In this document: one piece after another, positions 56,906 through 64,000 of the stretch
How positions within the stretch are numbered: position 1 is the first letter of the stretch
Layout of the letters: every line of letters starts with the position of its first letter
Assembly: GCF_022919215.1 (NCBI RefSeq)
Contig: NZ_CP095047.1
Location: forward strand, 73,866 to 137,865
From: Hymenobacter cellulosilyticus
GTDB lineage: Bacteria; Bacteroidota; Bacteroidia; Cytophagales; Hymenobacteraceae
Direction of reading: 5' to 3'
Length of the DNA: 64,000 nucleotides
Translations under genes and position numbers: made by a program
Notes under the pieces: model-generated
What the model was told of the DNA's origin: nothing
Seen by the model: only the letters and a program-made list of their open reading frames with translations
The model's database searches: none

Positions 56906-57769
56906 TTAATACGCACTCCAACCCATTCGCTCCATCCAAATGGCCTTGAAAGGCAGTTTGGAATCAGCGTACTCTTGTTCTAAGTCGGCCGTCATCCGGT
57001 TAACCGTCGTCTGGAAAGGACGGGTGCCGTCTTTCATCCCGATAAGCCGGGAAACCGCATCGGCTACCTCCTGGGCATCCATGCCGTACTCGGTTATCTT
57101 CCCTTCCATGATGCCGCCAAACTGCTCCAGAGCCGTTTGCATAGCCGGTCCGTAAGCCGCCAGTACTTCGGGACGGTCCGGCCCAAAGCTGGCGGCTTTG
57201 GCTCCTATTTCCGTCGGAAATGGCCCGGGCAATACGGATACGGTTTCAATGCCGTACCCTTTCACTTCGTGCCGGATGCCTTCCGTGAGCGCTTCCAGCC
57301 CGAACTTGGTCATTTGGTAGGGCACGACAAAGGGGGTAGCCACCACACCAAACCCGCTGGAGATGTTGATAATCAGCCCCGATTTATGCGCTCGCATCGA
57401 CGGCAACACCGCTTGATAGGCGCGGACCACCCCGAAAAGATTGACCTCGAAGAGTTTTTTCATCTGGGCAATCGAGGTCGCCTCTACTATCCCAAACCCG
57501 GTGCTGCCGGCGTTATTGACCAGTACATCCAAATGACCATACTTTTGGATGGTCGACGTGATGGCCTGGGTAACCGACTCGTCGCTGGTGATATCCATCT
57601 CCACCACTTCCACGTTGGGCAGCGCGGCCAGCTCCTGGGCGACCGCGGCGTTTTTGCTCGTGGTGTTGCGCATCGCGGCGATGATGCTATGGCCTTGCTC
57701 AGACAGGGTGAGCACCATCAGCTTGCCAAACCCACTGCTGGTCCCGGTTATTAAAATGTTCTTTGACAT
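56906..57769 (-). CDS. Short-chain dehydrogenase/reductase
   Basis: A 287-aa SDR. The cofactor motif TGTSSGFG is at 8-15 and NNAGSTG near 88. The catalytic segment is VPYQMTKFGLEALTEG (Tyr-x-x-x-Lys), and VLPGPFPTEIG is typical of family members acting on larger carbonyls. Complete. A GTGACATTTGTCAC palindrome lies 104-117 bp upstream (57873-57886) and the Crp regulator gene follows behind it on the same strand, so that regulator is a likely controller. Confidence 0.93.
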   Translation of the reverse strand: MSKNILITGTSSGFGKLMVLTLSEQGHSIIAAMRNTTSKNAAVAQELAALPNVEVVEMDITSDESVTQAITSTIQKYGHLDVLVNNAGSTGFGIVEATSIAQMKKLFEVNLFGVVRAYQAVLPSMRAHKSGLIINISSGFGVVATPFVVPYQMTKFGLEALTEGIRHEVKGYGIETVSVLPGPFPTEIGAKAASFGPDRPEVLAAYGPAMQTALEQFGGIMEGKITEYGMDAQEVADAVSRLIGMKDGTRPFQTTVNRMTADLEQEYADSKLPFKAIWMERMGWSAY

Positions 57770-57872
57770 GTCCTTACGCTGGTTTTGAGTGCGTCAGCTG
57801 TTCGTTCAGTTGACCCTGCAAAATTCAGCGCGCTGCCAGGGGTAGAAAGAGGACATTTGGCGCAAAATAATC

Positions 57873-57886
57873 GTGACATTTGTCAC
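57873..57886. promoter_or_regulatory. Crp-type palindrome upstream of SDR
   Basis: GTGACATTTGTCAC, a perfect 6+2+6 palindrome. A GAATTTTGC -7-like box lies about 55 bp nearer the gene, which places the site near -64. The half-site GTGACAAATG recurs upstream of the SDR at 63185. Confidence 0.55.
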
Positions 57887-57932
57887 AGAAAACGGCTAAG
57901 ATGTCGGCAAGGACGAATCAATAGGGGGTTAT

Positions 57933-58507
57933 CTAAAGCACATCGTGCTTGCGGATACGGCTCAGCGTTTCGCGGGAGACCCCAGGTAGGAGGCGACCAT
58001 GTGCAACGGCACACGATTATGAAAGTCCGGAAATGTCTTGAGAAAGGCATGGTATTTCTCTTCGGCGGTGTAGCTGATGGCTGCATGCAGCCGATTAACC
58101 TGCGCATCGATGGCGCGGCCCATCAACTTGGTCTGCAAGGCATCGAACGCGGGAATTTCTCTGCGAAGCATTTCCCAGTTGTCTTTTGACCACAGCAGCA
58201 GCTGACTATCTTCCAAGGCGTCAATGTTCCCCTTAGAGGGCAGGCCGCTCTGAAAGCTTTCGTAGTCACTAACCCACCAGTTTTCGCCGGTAAAGCGTAA
58301 AATGTGTTCGGTCGCATCATCACCTACGCGGAAAAGACGCAATAACCCACTGACCACGAAACCATGGTATTGGCATATTTGGCCTTCGTGTAGCAAGTAC
58401 TGCCGGCGCTTTAGCTTCTTGTTGACCGTAACAGCGTCAATCTTGTTCAAGTCAGCAGCAGTGAATGAAGCTCTATCGGTCAGGTATTTTACAAAGGTTT
58501 CAACCAT
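57933..58507 (-). pseudogene. Crp/Fnr-family regulator (frameshift at 3' end)
   Basis: About 190 aa restored. The cyclic-nucleotide-like barrel (KRRQYLLHEGQICQYHGFVVSGLLRLFRVGDDATEHILRFTGENWWVSDYESF) is followed by a C-terminal helix-turn-helix, cut by a frame break at the C4 run 57980-57983. One added base yields ASYLGVSRETLSRIRKHDVL and a stop at 57933-57935. It lies 160 bp upstream of the 56906 SDR on the same strand, with the GTGACA palindrome between them. Close in type to the 15134 regulator. Confidence 0.87.
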
Positions 58508-58862
58508 AGCGGGTTAAGAGGTTGACGAAGCGGACGGTACGCACGAAGTAGCGGGGGTGTGGAGCAAGGATGTAAACTAAGCCGTTCCGAACCCAGCCAG
58601 GTAAACATCAACGCATGTGCATGTGTTTGACAATCGACTATTTTAGGAACTCCTTCGCTGCCAAATCATAGCCAGGCGCGTAGCGCGTGTGGTTCTTCGC
58701 CCTTGTTAAGCTGGGCGTGGATGCGCTGGTGCAGGGGCTGGCTTTGCAGGTAGCGCAGGATGAAGCGGGCCCTGATGAGCTGACCGTGGGCCTGCAGCAC
58801 CTAAAACTTTTTGCGCTCTTGGGGGTTGCCACAGCTTTGAATTCTACAAGTCCCCTGCTATC
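58508..58862. other. Divergent region holding a transposase scrap
   Basis: Between the Crp (minus) and AraC (plus) genes. Contains the Tn3-type remnant at 58623-58800. No intact gene. Confidence 0.45.
58623..58800 (-). mobile_element. Remnant of Tn3-family transposase C-terminus
   Basis: The minus frame from 58800 reads AHGQLIRARFILRYLQSQPL, RIHAQLNKGEEPHALRAWL, then a stop (TGA at 58662-58667 region) and FGSEGV. This strongly resembles the C-terminal block of Tn3 TnpA (AxGxLxRxxFILRYL...RRIHxxLNKGExxHALRR). The rest of the transposase is absent. The stop and the lack of flanking sequence mark it as a dead fragment. Confidence 0.6.
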
Positions 58863-59805
58863 ATGACGACCGCCGCGCTCACCACCCTTTACCAGGAGTT
58901 GGCTCCCTGCACAGGCCTCGACTTGAGCACCCTGCTGCCCGGGGGTATTCAGCGCGAAGTCGGTCACTTCAATGTGTTTGATATGGCCGACCTCTGGGAG
59001 ACTACCGGACTGCGGCCCGGCACACCGTACCCCTGCCGCTCGTTCTACAAAATCAGCCTCTTCCGAAGCCACAGCCGCGCCGAATACGCCGACCACAGCA
59101 TCGACATTGCGCCCGATACCCTGGTGTTTTCAACGCCCAAAGTGGCGTTTCAGTGGTGGCCCGCCGAGCCGCAGCAGGGCCAGTTCTGCCTCTACTCCGC
59201 CGAGTTCTTGCTGCCGGTCCTCGGGGCATGACGCCTGACGAACTGCCCTTGTTTCAGGCCGAGGGGTCCCTCGTGTTCCAGCTTACGCCGGCCGAAGCAG
59301 CGCGGGTGTCGGCTATTTTCACCCAGATGCACGAGGACTTGGTTTCCGACTACGCCCACAAGTACGACCTGCTGCGCGCCTACGTGCTGGAGCTGCTGCA
59401 CCTGGGCCAAAAACGACAACCCACGACCGCGCTGCACCCCACCCACTCGGCGGCCGCCCGGCTCGCTTCCCGCTTCGTGGAGCTACTGGAGCGGCAGTTT
59501 CCCCTCAATTCGCCCCAGCAGCGCGTCCAGTTGCGCATGGCCAAGGACTTTGCCGACCAGCTAGCCGTGCACGTCAATCACCTCAACAAAATATTGAAAG
59601 CGCACACGGGCCGTACCACCAGCGACCTGCTCGGGGACGGTTGGCACAGGAGGCCAAGGCGCTCTTGCAACAGTCCGACTGGACGCTGTGGGAAATTGCC
59701 GACAGCCTGGGCTTCGTCGATGTGGCGCACTTCTCGCACTTCTTCCGCCGCTATGCTGCCGTGAGCCCCGGCGCGTTTCGCACGCTGGAAGCCGTAGCGG
59801 ATTGA
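58863..59805 (+). pseudogene. AraC-family regulator (two frameshifts)
   Basis: About 314 aa restored. MTTAALTTLYQELAPCTGLDLSTLLPG begins at 58863. Added Gs at 59223-59226 (VLGG MTPDELP) and 59633-59636 (LLGGRLAQEAKALLQQSDW) join the parts. C-terminal double helix-turn-helix: FADQLAVHVNHLNKILKAHTGRTTSDLL ... TLWEIADSLGFVDVAHFSHFFRRYAAVSPGAFR. Paralogue of 54108-54988. It lies 93 bp before an SDR with a 21-bp-spaced direct repeat between them. Confidence 0.88.
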
Positions 59806-59809
59806 TTTA

Positions 59810-59842
59810 TACAACAAGCGGATTGGCGGGTACAACGCCGCC
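59810..59842 (+). promoter_or_regulatory. AraC-type direct-repeat operator
   Basis: TACAACAAGCGG at 59810 and TACAACGCCGCC at 59831 are repeated exactly 21 bp apart (two helical turns), as is usual for AraC half-sites. The -7 box follows 16 bp later. Confidence 0.5.
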
Positions 59843-59857
59843 AGCAGGGGACTAGAG

Positions 59858-59865
59858 GACCTTTG
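59858..59865 (+). promoter_or_regulatory. -7 box of SDR promoter
   Basis: GACCTTTG within AGGACCTTTGTCGTG, 34 bp before the SDR ATG at 59899. Confidence 0.5.
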
Positions 59866-59898
59866 TCGTGTTGCATTAACACCACAAATACATCCCTC

Positions 59899-60650
59899 AT
59901 GAGTACTTCCAAAATAGCGCTGCTCACCGGTGGCAGCCGGGGCCTGGGCAAAGACATGGCCCTGAAACTGGCCCAGCAGGGCATTGATGTCATCCTGACC
60001 TACCGCAGCCAGCAGGCCGAAGCCGAAAGCGTGGTCGCCGCCATCGAAGCCCTGGGCCGCCGCGCCGTGGCCATCCCGCTGAATGCCGCCGACCTGAGTA
60101 CCTTCCCTGAATTCTTCGCGCAGGTCGCGGCGGTCCTGACCGATACCTTCGGCACCGACCGGTTCGATTTTCTTATCAATAACGCCGGCGCCAGCCTCTT
60201 TACTCCAATTGCCGAGATGACGGAGGCCCAGTTTGACGAGATGCTGAACGTGAATTTCAAGGGCGTATACTTCCTCACCCAACTGGCGCTGCCCTGCTGC
60301 GCGACGGCGGCCGCATCATCAACATTTCCTCGGTGTCCGCGCGCAGTTCCTTCGCGGGCGTGTCGGCCTACGCTGCCATGAAAGGCGCGGTGGAGGTCTT
60401 CACGCGTTACCTGGCGCTGGAGTTGGGTAGCCGGGGCATTGCGGCCAACGTAGTCGCCCCTGGCGCCGTATTTGGGGGCGGCACGATGCCGGATACGCCC
60501 GAGATGCGCGCTTGGGTGGCCCAAGCCACGGCCCTGGGCCGCACGGCCGAGCCCGACGATATCGGCGGCATCGTCGCTTTCCTCTGCACCGATGCGGCCC
60601 GCTGGCTCAATGGCCAGCGCCTAGAGGCAACCGGGGGAATCGTGCTCTAA
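59899..60650 (+). pseudogene. Short-chain dehydrogenase/reductase (one frameshift)
   Basis: About 250 aa restored. MSTSKIALLTGGSRGLGKDMALKLAQQ starts at 59899, with TGGSRGLG as the cofactor motif and INNAGASL near residue 95. One added C at 60292-60294 joins QLALPLLRDGGRIINISSVSARS; the catalytic pair is in YAAMKGAVEVF. The end is RLEATGGIVL. Likely controlled by the AraC gene directly upstream. Confidence 0.9.
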
Positions 60651-60688
60651 ACGGGCTGACGAATTACTTCTTGTGCGTTACACCCTAC

Positions 60689-60735
60689 TCCACAACACGC
60701 CGTTACTGGCTATTATAGTAGCTGCGTGTTGTGGA
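60689..60735 (+). terminator. Hairpin after SDR
   Basis: TCCACAACACGC / GCGTGTTGTGGA with a 23-base loop, 38 bp past the SDR stop and followed by TTTTA. Confidence 0.65.
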
Positions 60736-60753
60736 TTTTAAGGGAGCAAATGG

Positions 60754-60785
60754 GGGTGTTGTTAAACAGATAGGGTAAATCCTCC
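60754..60785 (+). repeat. Inverted repeat, left end of cassette
   Basis: A 32-bp repeat starting GGGTGTTGTTAAACA and ending CCTCC. It matches the reverse complement of 62911-62942 at 30 of 32 positions. Confidence 0.75.
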
Positions 60786-60853
60786 AACCCCGACCACCCA
60801 GGCTTGGTTAACGGCGGCCAAGTGGCAACCAGAACGGAGTAGCTCGTCTTTGG

Positions 60854-61762
60854 TCACGTAAAAGTAGCCCTGAATTCCAACGGCGACAGATTCGTTTTGG
60901 CCTTAAACAGCTTGCTAAAGGACGGCACATGCTCGAACCCCAACTGGTAAGCAATTTCGCTGACAGTCAGGCTGGTCGTTGATAGTTTCTCCTTGGCTTT
61001 GGCGATGAGCCGGGCATGAATGTGCTGCTGGGTATTTTGCCCCGTGACGACGCGCAATAGATTGCTCAAATACTTGGGCGACAAGTGTAGGCTTTCGGCC
61101 ACGTACTGCACGGTGGGCAGTCCCGTTTCTGGCAAATGGTCGTGGTTGAAATGCGCGTGCAGCAGGGTGTCCAGCCGGTCGAGTACCTCGTGGTTGGCCT
61201 TTTCGCGGGTAAGGAACTGACGGTGGTAAAACCGGTCGGCGTAGGACAGCAGGCTTTCCAGGTGCGAGACAATAATCTGCTTGCTGAAGCGGTCCAGGTT
61301 GGCGCTGCACTCCTGCGCCACCGTGGCAATGATGCCCGTTACGGCCGCTTCCTCCTTGGCCGACAGGAACAGGGCCTCCTTGAGCGCGTAATCCCAGAAA
61401 TCGTGCTGCTGGATGGTTTTGGCCAGCGGCGTATTCCACAGAAAATCGGGGTGGAGGTAGACCACCCACCCCGATTTCTCTACGGCCTCGGCCGGGTCGG
61501 CCACCCCGATGCTGAACACCTGGTTGGGTGCCATGAACGACATGATGCCGTCGTTGAAGTCGAACGAATGCTGCCCGTACTGCACCTGGACGTTGCGCAT
61601 GCGTTTGACGGAAATGGCGTAGAAATCCAGGACCGTGCTCGTCGGCTCCTCGCCGGCCCGGTGCGGCACGGCGCCCACGTCCACGACGCTGAGCAGCGGG
61701 TGCTGGGGTGGGGGCAGCTGCGCGAACGCATGAAACGCACTCAGCGTCTGAAAGCGCCTCAT
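60854..61762 (-). CDS. AraC-family transcriptional regulator
   Basis: A 302-aa regulator. The N-terminal sensor domain (HSFDFNDGIMSFMAPNQVFSIG ... GWVVYLHPDFLWNTPL) is followed by a C-terminal double helix-turn-helix (PTVQYVAESLHLSPKYLSNLLRVVTGQNTQQHI and TVSEIAYQLGFEHVPSFSKLFKAKTNLSPLEFR). Complete. Its ATG overlaps the stop of the reductase gene by 4 bp (61759-61762), so the two are translationally coupled. Both lie inside a 2.2-kb inverted-repeat-bounded segment. Confidence 0.94.
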   Translation of the reverse strand: MRRFQTLSAFHAFAQLPPPQHPLLSVVDVGAVPHRAGEEPTSTVLDFYAISVKRMRNVQVQYGQHSFDFNDGIMSFMAPNQVFSIGVADPAEAVEKSGWVVYLHPDFLWNTPLAKTIQQHDFWDYALKEALFLSAKEEAAVTGIIATVAQECSANLDRFSKQIIVSHLESLLSYADRFYHRQFLTREKANHEVLDRLDTLLHAHFNHDHLPETGLPTVQYVAESLHLSPKYLSNLLRVVTGQNTQQHIHARLIAKAKEKLSTTSLTVSEIAYQLGFEHVPSFSKLFKAKTNLSPLEFRATFT

Positions 61763-62732
61763 GCCGGCTCGTCGTCGGGGTGTATTTCCAGCACCAGCTT
61801 GCCCCGCACGCGCAGGGTCTGGCTTTCGCGGTGGGCGTCGGCCGCCTGCGCCAGCGGAAACACCTGGCTCACCAGCACTTTCACGTGGCCCGCATCAATC
61901 AGTTGGGCGATTTCCTGCAACCACTCCTGCCGGGGCTGGTTGGCGGCCAGCTCGCCTTTGGCTTGCTGCTGCGCCAGGGCGGCGAGCACTGCCTCGTCAA
62001 ATGGCGCGTCGACGTTGACCGTGACGAAGATGCCGCCGGCCTTCAGGACCGGGACCACTTTCAGCCGCTCGGCGTTGTCGCGCAGGGGGAGGCTTCCAGC
62101 ACCACGTCCACGTCCTGCACCAACGCCACCACCTCCTGGCTGCGGTAGTCGATTACCTCGTCGGCCCCGAGCTGCTTCACGTAGTCCAGGTTAGCGGCTG
62201 ACGCGGTGCCAATGACGTACGCGCCCTTGGCTTTGGCAAACTGCACGGCAAAGCCCCCTACTCCGCCCGAGGCCCCTTGAACTAAAACGCGCTGGCCAGG
62301 CTGCAGCTTTCCTTGCTCAAAAAGGGCCGTCCACGCCGTTAGGCCAGCCAGGGGCACGCCCGCCGCCGCCATGAAGCTGAGGCTCTTTGGTTTGAGAGCA
62401 AACTGCGTGGCCTTGGACGTGCAGTACTCGGCGTAGCTGCCCGCCCCGGGGAAGTTCGGCTCCCCGTACACGGCGTCGCCGACCTGAAACCCGGTGACCT
62501 CGCTGCCGACCGCTTCCACCACCCCGGCTGCGTCCCAACCAAGGGTCATCGGCAAGGCCAGGTACGGCCGCAGCACATCGTTCCCGCCTTCCCGAATGCC
62601 CCAGTCTACGGGATTGACGCCGCTGGCGTACACTTTGATGAGAATTTCGTCGGCTGCCGGCACGGGCCGCGCCACTTCTTCGAGTTGTAGGACCTCGGGT
62701 CCGCCAAAGGCATGAATTCTGACCGCTTTCAT
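61759..62732 (-). pseudogene. NADP-dependent quinone oxidoreductase-like reductase (one frameshift)
   Basis: About 324 aa restored. MKAVRIHAFGGPEVLQLEEVARP starts at 62732. GWDAAGVVEAVGSEV, AGSYAEYC and the cofactor motif GASGGVGGFAVQFAKAKGAYVIGTAS are of the zinc-less MDR family. One added C at the 62085-62089 run joins VVLEASP to LRDNAERLKVVPVLKAGGIFV. The end is LRVRGKLVLEIHPDDEPA. First gene of a two-gene operon with the AraC regulator, and it has a 21-bp-spaced direct repeat in its promoter. Confidence 0.9.
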
Positions 62733-62761
62733 GTAGACGTTTTTTGGGTTTGTTGACGATA

Positions 62762-62769
62762 CAAAGGTC
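62762..62769 (-). promoter_or_regulatory. -7 box of reductase-araC operon
   Basis: Minus-strand GACCTTTG in AGGACCTTTGTATCG, 30 bp before the ATG at 62732. Confidence 0.5.
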
Positions 62770-62790
62770 CTCCCTGCTTGAAAAGCAGGT

Positions 62791-62823
62791 TTAACCAAAA
62801 TGCCCTTCGTGTTAGTCAAAATG
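62791..62823 (-). promoter_or_regulatory. AraC-type direct-repeat operator
   Basis: On the minus strand CATTTTGACTAA and CATTTTGGTTAA start exactly 21 bp apart, upstream of the -7 box. Expected target of the AraC protein encoded in the same cassette. Confidence 0.55.
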
Positions 62824-62910
62824 ACGCCGCTTATTTATTCCTGCTAGTTGATTTGCCAGTCGCGCACGCGACGCCCCGACCTCCTTACTGGCCAACTGAT
62901 GCGCCTAGTC

Positions 62911-62942
62911 GGAGGTTTTACCCTATTTGTTTAACAACACCC
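62911..62942 (-). repeat. Inverted repeat, right end of cassette
   Basis: Begins GGAGGTTTTACCC and ends AACAACACCC; reverse complement of 60754-60785 with two mismatches. Confidence 0.75.
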
Positions 62943-63047
62943 AAATAGGCATAAACAACTTGATTGCTTAGCGTTTAAATCTGCCCTTTCGGAAGAAGAA
63001 CCCCTAGTAGCCGCACTGGTCGAGCTGGCCATCCGTAGCCGGATTCC

Positions 63048-63083
63048 GTGATAAATGTCCTCGTAATTCGGTGACAAATGCCC
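63048..63083 (+). promoter_or_regulatory. Tandem Crp-like half-sites upstream of SDR
   Basis: GTGATAAATGTCC (63048-63060) and GTGACAAATGCCC (63071-63083), 23 bp apart. They match the half-site of the palindrome at 57873-57886. A GAACTTTG -7 box follows at 63107-63114. Confidence 0.5.
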
Positions 63084-63106
63084 TCACACTGCCCTGCACA
63101 GGGGCA

Positions 63107-63114
63107 GAACTTTG
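63107..63114 (+). promoter_or_regulatory. -7 box of SDR 63185
   Basis: GAACTTTG, about 70 bp before the ATG. The two half-sites fall near -44 and -67 relative to a start site 7 bp after the box. Confidence 0.4.
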
Positions 63115-63184
63115 TGTAAGCAAGCAGCGGAGCAGCGAGTGGTAAGTCGCCACTCCTTTTTTCACCCCCTGCTACCTACAAACA

Positions 63185-63948
63185 ATGTCTAACAGACTCG
63201 CAAACAAAGTAACCGTCATCACGGGCGGCAATAGCGGCATTGGCTTCGGCATTGCCCAGGAATTTCAGCAAGAAGGTGCCAAAGGTGCTATCGTCGGCCG
63301 CAACCAGGAGACGCTGGACCGTTCGGCCGCGCAACTTGGGGACAACTTTATTGGTATCAAAGCCGACGTCACGCAAATCGCCGATTTGGAACGGGTGTTT
63401 AAAACCGTAGCCGACAAGTTTGGGAAGCTTGATTCGCTGGTCGTCAATGCGGGCGGGGCAGTGGAGGCGGGCATCGTTGGCTCGGTGGTTGGTGCTACCG
63501 AAGAACACTTTGAGCAGACAATCGACCTCAACCTGAAAAGCGTCTTTTTTACGGTGCAAAAAGCGCTGCCGTATATGAACGACGGGGCCTCCATCGTACT
63601 GGTTTCGTCGATGGTGGCACACCGGGCGATGCCCGGCCTGACGGTGTATGGGGCCGCCAAGGCGGGGTTGTCTCCTTCGCTCGCTCCTTTTCGCACGACC
63701 TGCTAGAGCGCAAAATTCGCGTCAATGTACTCAGCCCCGGCACTATTGAGACCCCGGTTTTCGATAAGTTCGGGATTCCGGCTGAGGCAATGGCCCAAGC
63801 CAAAAACGATTTTGCGGACCTGATTCCCATCAAGCGCATCGGGCAGCCGAGCGAGATGGGCCGGGTCGCGGTGTTCCTGGCTTCGGAGGATTCTTCCTTT
63901 ATGCTGGGCACCGAAGTGTTGGCTGATGGCGGCGTCATCAACGTCTAA
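63185..63948 (+). pseudogene. Short-chain dehydrogenase/reductase (one frameshift)
   Basis: About 254 aa restored. MSNRLANKVTVITGGNSGIGFGIAQEF starts at 63185; VNAGGAVEAG follows the cofactor part and YGAAKAG is the catalytic segment. One added G at the 63664-63667 run joins VVSFARSFSHDLLERKIRVNVLSPGTIETPVFD, and the end is LGTEVLADGGVINV. Related to the 50217 SDR. The tandem half-sites upstream suggest control by a Crp-type protein. Confidence 0.9.
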
Positions 63949-64000
63949 AACAAGGCGTTTGCCTGGCTAGACACGCGCAGGTCTTTTTAATCGAGTCCGG

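Follow-up and report, generated by a model that had tools for sequence, protein, structure and literature searches.

In Xanthomonas, mobile insertion cassettes (MICs) lie between long Tn3-family repeats and encode no transposition enzymes, according to PMC6304161. In Pseudomonas, the elements named TIME, TIME-RES and TIME-COMP are non-autonomous derivatives of Tn3 that measure 262-3892 bp, have 38-bp ends and make 5-6-bp duplications in AT-rich targets, as PMC4133298 describes them. The locus of Hymenobacter cellulosilyticus considered here is very likely another non-autonomous Tn3-family unit of the MIC kind, in which a reductase-araC operon is held between Tn3 ends that we call type A. Several features of a MIC can be recognized in it: there are no transposition genes, the repeats are those of the Tn3 family, the passengers have no role in transposition and the site is empty in a relative.

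The unit is 2189 bp long and lies near the right end of the window, by which we mean the whole 64-kb stretch of DNA that was analysed (C2:73866-137865 of the assembly). It contains a reductase gene, an overlapping araC gene and the operator upstream of them, and it is bounded by inverted repeats at 60754-60788 (plus strand) and 62908-62942 (minus strand), with 35-nt arms that are 91% complementary and 2119 nt apart. An earlier reading, made from the sequence only, had described two 32-bp inverted repeats that enclose this operon together with its upstream half-sites and no transposase. Each of these points holds: the repeats agree at 30 of 32 positions over that length, the open reading frames (ORFs) and Pfam matches give the same content, no transposase ORF appears between the repeats in the ORF list or by Pfam, and tblastn with the TnpA of both Tn3 types and with resolvase finds no match inside the unit. 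The absence of tnpA and resolvase by all three approaches also rules out an autonomous Tn3 transposon. With up to three mismatches, the 26-nt core of the repeat occurs at exactly two sites in the window, both of them unit ends, and in none of 100 shuffles. A genome-wide search for the 32-nt end, as the sequence-only reading had proposed, gave at the same tolerance two copies in the whole assembly (6.09 Mb, 3 contigs), again both at the unit. No degenerate type-A end was found elsewhere in the 64-kb window, where the next best site has 12 mismatches.

Within the unit, the repeat on the left is followed by a subterminal stretch (60789-60833, plus strand) that resembles the tnpA-side end of type-A Tn3 elements in an alignment to the element of Hymenobacter sp. 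GOD-10R (L094). The operon is read from the minus strand. Its AraC-family regulator (60854-61762, 302 aa) matches HTH_18 (PF12833) and HTH_AraC (PF00165), and its zinc-type NAD(P)H reductase (61759-62732) matches ADH_N and ADH_zinc_N, the best match being to the PIG3-like quinone-reductase subfamily with a score below the curated cut-off. Translational coupling of the two genes, as claimed earlier, stands with regard to the gene overlap, an ATGA at 61759-61762 that joins the araC gene to the stop of the reductase, but not with regard to a single open reductase frame, which in this assembly is split into two ORFs (62061-62819 and 61759-62058). Among the matches listed, 45 of 46 relatives have an open stretch of 310 codons or more over the reductase, whereas the longest one here is 225 codons. 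The operon as compared measures 1887 nt here; it has 1888 nt in 33 of the 46, and in the remaining 13 its length varies between 1884 and 1933 nt. The broken frame may reflect either an assembly error or a decayed gene. Reductase or regulator genes at 58863-59764, 59863-60650, 61759-62732 and 63185-63950 of the window are each split into two overlapping or adjoining frames, which suggests assembly indel errors or widespread decay. The putative operator (62791-62826, minus strand) has two CAAAATG half-sites at 62796-62802 and 62817-62823, with the 21-bp spacing noted earlier as AraC-type. TTTTG on the sense strand is exact at both half-sites in 19 of the 46 related operons among the matches listed (counted by eye from aligned rows), and the others differ by single bases. 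The spacing of the half-sites in E. coli araI is similar. It is plausible that the AraC protein regulates the operon through these two half-sites, in which case the trait would travel with its control.

The identity of the ends becomes apparent from the genus. With up to three mismatches, the 32-nt end is present in 66 of 120 Hymenobacter genomes, including the source genome, while a reversed-pattern control gave none; its exact sequence occurs in 32 stretches of a genome-contig collection, every one from Hymenobacter. Relaxing the pattern brought in one more genome, G049, in a scan that covered the 65 other positive genomes and 21 of the 54 negative ones. Ends frequently stand alone, with no partner close by at many sites in the genus. 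Inward-facing pairs enclose DNA of three kinds: elements about 273 bp long, elements of 3946-3960 bp, and passenger units that have no transposase, so that the other repeat-bounded passengers for which the sequence-only reading had advised a search do exist. TnpA and a serine resolvase are encoded in all 12 of the 3946-3960-bp elements tested, TnpA being open over its length in nine. There are also longer type-A forms, one of which, the 6909-bp element of Hymenobacter sp. GOD-10R (plasmid NZ_CP141185), carries TnpA, resolvase and an AraC gene (Pfam matches DDE_Tnp_Tn3, PF01526, 6.5e-108; Resolvase; HTH_18). An exact 6-bp duplication marks the boundary in 17 of 78 inward pairs, counted as those of at least 150 bp in the fetched regions and including some alternative pairings in one locus; the other 61 have none, and the count falls to 0/78 when the position is shifted by 6, 12 or 18 bp. 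These duplications are 80% A+T, and the GOD-10R element with its intact TnpA is among the pairs that have one. The transposition genes and the exact duplications thus point to Tn3, more precisely to a subgroup, type A, that duplicates 6 bp. The "insertion-sequence ends" of the earlier reading are transposon ends, but of the Tn3 family, and the insertion-sequence type is ruled out by the Tn3 TnpA and resolvase in all 12 tested elements. A 6.5-kb type-A Tn3 occurs in two copies on one contig of another genome (L092 656-7161, G092:C6), and the fetched copy is flanked by an exact 5-bp repeat, ACCCA, rather than by 6 bp.

Did the unit insert as one piece? Its flanks, AAATGG (60748-60753) and AAATAG (62943-62948), match at five of six positions and are presumed to be an imperfect target duplication; the chance of at least 5/6 between hexamers of both flanks is 0.0047. 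A genus search with the joined flanks, from which the unit and one hexamer had been removed, brought up an empty site in Hymenobacter genome G116 (G116:C1:4529253-4529494), with 212 of 245 aligned positions matching across the junction and a single hexamer, AAAAGG. Since a related species has the same spot empty, the reductase and regulator pair most likely arrived as one unit. Of the further tests that the sequence-only reading had outlined, the one for an empty site in relatives is thereby answered positively, and the one for target duplications in part, with exact ones at 17 of the 78 related pairs and 5/6 at the unit itself. Neither of the patterns that it had held to be at odds with a mobile cassette was encountered, namely repeats occurring singly at many unrelated sites with no bounded cassettes, and the same region syntenic without repeats in all relatives. 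In the named plasmids, where the flanks were searched apart, left matches reach 60649 and right matches start at 62962, so that no empty site was seen in those plasmids. Immediately to the left of the insertion site lies a hairpin (60689-60735; arms of 19 nt) that is probably the terminator of an SDR gene.

Two alternatives had been put forward for the repeat-bounded operon, a self-regulated passenger moved in trans and genes caught between two ends. The first fits best with the TnpA-bearing kin of the ends, the empty site in G116, the 5/6 flanks and the decayed copies found elsewhere, whereas the second is contradicted by the G116 site. The Tn3 family transposes by a replicative route. Presumably a cognate TnpA, whose source was a type-A Tn3 either already present in the cell or newly arrived, acted in trans on both ends and moved the segment by this route.

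How such a unit came into being is a matter on which the evidence is divided. The unit may descend from an autonomous type-A Tn3 with the operon as its passenger, in which an internal deletion removed the transposition genes and left the ends; this is compatible with movement as a cassette, and we give it an even chance. It is favoured by the first 79 nt of the unit, which resemble the tnpA-side end of autonomous elements and reach 78.75% in the alignments to the two ends of the GOD-10R element, by the passenger unit L097, where the final 45 residues of TnpA (62%) survive next to the right end, and by the existence of autonomous type-A elements with an AraC passenger. However, no autonomous element carrying the reductase-araC operon was found, and the right spacer of the unit (62836-62907) matches none of the Tn3 interiors compared. 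A possible but more doubtful origin is composite capture between two 273-bp miniature elements, in the manner of TIME-COMP, with later loss of their cores. Miniature elements are indeed abundant (42 of the 78 pairs are 190-300 bp long), the right end of the unit matches them over 43-52 nt, and the units L091 and L099 look composite, but neither end of the H. cellulosilyticus unit extends into a full 273-bp element. The resemblance of the left end to the tnpA side and the TnpA remnant in L097 favour deletion over such a capture. The unit as it stands was rejected as a TIME-COMP, the similarity to the 273-bp elements stopping about 43-52 nt inside the right end. It is very improbable that two ends inserted independently on either side of genes that never moved as a unit. 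While partnerless ends are common in the genus and the duplication is imperfect, this scenario does not explain why the G116 site lacks the whole 2189-bp segment and one hexamer, nor why the same cassette recurs at other places in other species, its ends at corresponding distances. Finally, a native role of the repeats in the operon, as an inversion switch or a regulatory palindrome, might be suggested by their inverted orientation around promoter and genes. It is scarcely credible, because the same ends also enclose DNA of unrelated content, 197 bp to several kb long, and are missing from 42 of the 46 related operons among the matches listed.

The surroundings of the cassette contain traces of another transposon. 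What the unit region and genome G050 have in common over 40 bp is the end of another Tn3 subgroup, type B, lying just outside the right repeat (62966-63004, minus strand). This end differs at 3 of 39 positions from the repeat that follows the 3' end of tnpA in H. sublimis and in Hymenobacter sp. 5516J-16, and at up to three mismatches it is single-copy in the assembly, where no left partner was found at that tolerance; the window has none either, the next best site (15/39 mismatches) being within the range of shuffled windows. A scrap of type-B transposase (58648-58800, minus strand) with two stops lies at the sole PF01526 match in the assembly and is 88% identical over 51 residues to the TnpA of L167, the TnpA proteins of types A and B being 28% identical to each other. 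In G116, the block homologous to the left flank of the unit, an SDR gene, stops at a decayed type-B end (8 mismatches). Taken together, end, scrap and block point to a type-B element, or its remnant, that carries an AraC and SDR module (58863-60650), with the unit probably located immediately within its right end. As the type-B scrap is the only Tn3-transposase match in the assembly and no cognate, type-A TnpA was found there, the unit is now probably stranded. The region 56906-63950 of the window is a row of modules, an SDR with a cyclic-nucleotide-domain regulator, AraC with SDR, the AraC-reductase cassette and another SDR; several of these modules have relatives on an H. volaticus plasmid, where they are arranged differently.

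The reductase-araC operon is common in Hymenobacter, a genus search with the interior of the unit giving at least 47 nearly full-length alignments, its own copy included. We examined 46 others (29 loci of this search and 17 further regions, with at most about two candidates scored per genome) for ends with a weight matrix whose maximum in the wrong orientation is -10.1 bits (n=92). Among these matches, ends are found on both sides in G017 (31.5 left, 26.2 right) and G108 (14.9 left and a weak 1.1 right), and on the right only in G050 (31.4, left absent) and in the G116 copy at C1:3752472 (6.6, with a left score of -26.8 that falls within the null range). The remaining 42 of the 46 listed score -10.0 or below, so most of the spread of the operon needs no transposon. 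The right end lies 211-223 nt past a common reference point in these four copies and 202 nt past it in H. cellulosilyticus, and the right spacer has matches with E <1e-3 in G050, G108 and G017 and in none of the other related operons. The outer flanks of the five copies, with only about 0.3 kb of left flank for G108, have no junction in common save the 40 bp between the unit and G050; further similarities to the left flank of the unit, 1394 bp at 74% in the right flank of G116 and 140 bp at 68% in G017, lie away from the junction and are gene-level. One ancestral insertion inherited by all five carriers is therefore rejected for lack of a common junction, with the exception of G050 and its 40-bp type-B end; since G050 and the H. 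cellulosilyticus unit both have this end beside the right repeat, they may share history. In operon trees the five end-bearing copies cluster, with two label changes (0/500 shuffles as low). These could be taken as two separate captures, which the common right spacer opposes, and this spacer would rather speak for one capture with later losses or transfers, as far as a weak root allows. Because the copies without ends are deepest when the tree is rooted on a single, long Spirosoma branch, capture within Hymenobacter followed by loss of ends appears likeliest under this weak rooting.

What do other units of this type carry? We surveyed transposase-less end pairs of 300-3500 bp, several of which have no exact duplication. 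Their cargo comprises an SDR with AraC (L076 5927-8036, duplication ATTTCT), AraC with a flavodoxin-fold reductase (L095 651-2752), an SDR with a cyclic-nucleotide-domain regulator (L097 673-2541), an aldo/keto reductase (L091 583-2472), an NAD(P)-binding protein (L089 576-1716, duplication ACTTTT), a YdcZ exporter (identical units in L077 and L078), a gene of no family in a 921-bp unit (95.6% identical in L076 and L098) and a TonB_C protein (L197 695-2642, duplication TACTTT), the three duplications given being exact. A further locus, L099 699-5466 (G077:C2:5052900-5059100), holds an SDR, an NmrA-like protein and HxlR, then a hydrolase and an aldo/keto reductase, between three 69-bp near-perfect palindromes that each consist of two type-A ends head to head; its outermost flanks match at 5/6. 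Similar 69-bp double ends are seen in L097, G073 and G113. L077 with L078, and the 921-bp units of L076 and L098, were counted once each. The count excludes L096, whose 713 bp show no convincing gene, L084, which at 449 bp is a truncated relative of the 921-bp unit, and also L198 (4.7 kb) and L199 (5.0 kb). L198 669-5406 (G057:C2), a type-A pair without duplication, has a gene that by eye resembles a microbial rhodopsin, and the transposase-less pair L199 120-5155 (G077:C1), with the exact duplication TATTAT, encodes a response regulator (PF00072) and a long ORF that looks PAS-domain kinase-like by eye.

A reductase-type gene is present in 8 of the 11 coding units, including that of H. cellulosilyticus, and 5 of these also have a regulator. 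By genes, 9 of 18 in the cargo are reductase-type versus 10 of 193 in a background of five annotated Hymenobacter plasmid stretches (Fisher p 1.5e-6; 4.9e-6 without the H. cellulosilyticus unit); these plasmids were chosen for carrying ends or a related gene, their genes were classed by eye from product names, and two reductase genes inside units were dropped. The p value is 1.1e-4 without two NmrA-type proteins (7/18) and 1.1e-5 with a lenient background (14/193). L099 was absent from the first Fisher test and was added after its content had been read; p is 1.0e-4 without it, and 0.018 without it and the H. cellulosilyticus unit against the richest stretch alone. When the H. cellulosilyticus unit is taken together with the coding units that have exact duplications, 3 of 6 genes are reductase-type (p 0.004), and without that unit 2 of 4 (p 0.019). 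A bias of type-A units towards reductase-type cargo is thus suggested by gene content. A tentative extension, which we regard as rather unlikely, is that Hymenobacter keeps a common pool of NAD(P)H or flavin reductase modules, often with their own regulator, that move between plasmids and chromosomes on Tn3 ends without their own transposase, nest next to each other, and lose their ends once settled. If this were true, the pool would be an equivalent of integron cassettes built on transposons, for redox stress or catabolism, and the reductase-araC operon would have spread through part of the genus in cassette form.

With the empty site there is good evidence for the movement, on Tn3 ends and without a transposase, of a regulated metabolic operon in an environmental genus of Bacteroidota. 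The ends are easily recognized and so allow copies to be catalogued and the cargo of each to be read, and the apparent bias raises the question of why self-controlled redox genes should ride on such ends. Among titles on Hymenobacter transposons, Tn3 passengers in Bacteroidetes and oxidoreductase cassettes, a search largely outside subscription papers, none describes such a case. The closest autonomous relative is the type-A Tn3 on the GOD-10R plasmid (NZ_CP141185), which has the same terminal repeats and an AraC passenger, with a 6-bp duplication; unlike that element, the unit encodes neither TnpA nor resolvase. Units without transposase have been described in Pseudomonas and Xanthomonas (PMC4133298 and PMC6304161). 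In size and structure, the 273-bp elements of Hymenobacter come close to the Pseudomonas TIME elements of PMC4133298, whereas the H. cellulosilyticus unit differs from these in that its cargo is a regulated metabolic operon, neither of its ends has a full miniature element and it would owe its place to a movement deduced from comparison. Like the Xanthomonas MICs, which PMC6304161 presents as thought to depend on an outside transposase, it has passengers between Tn3-family repeats and no transposition genes; unlike them, it belongs to another phylum, has other ends and contains a regulator-reductase operon instead of effector genes. Mechanistically, the unit is of a known kind, while the frequent reductase-type cargo in the genus, suggestive as it is, is less expected.
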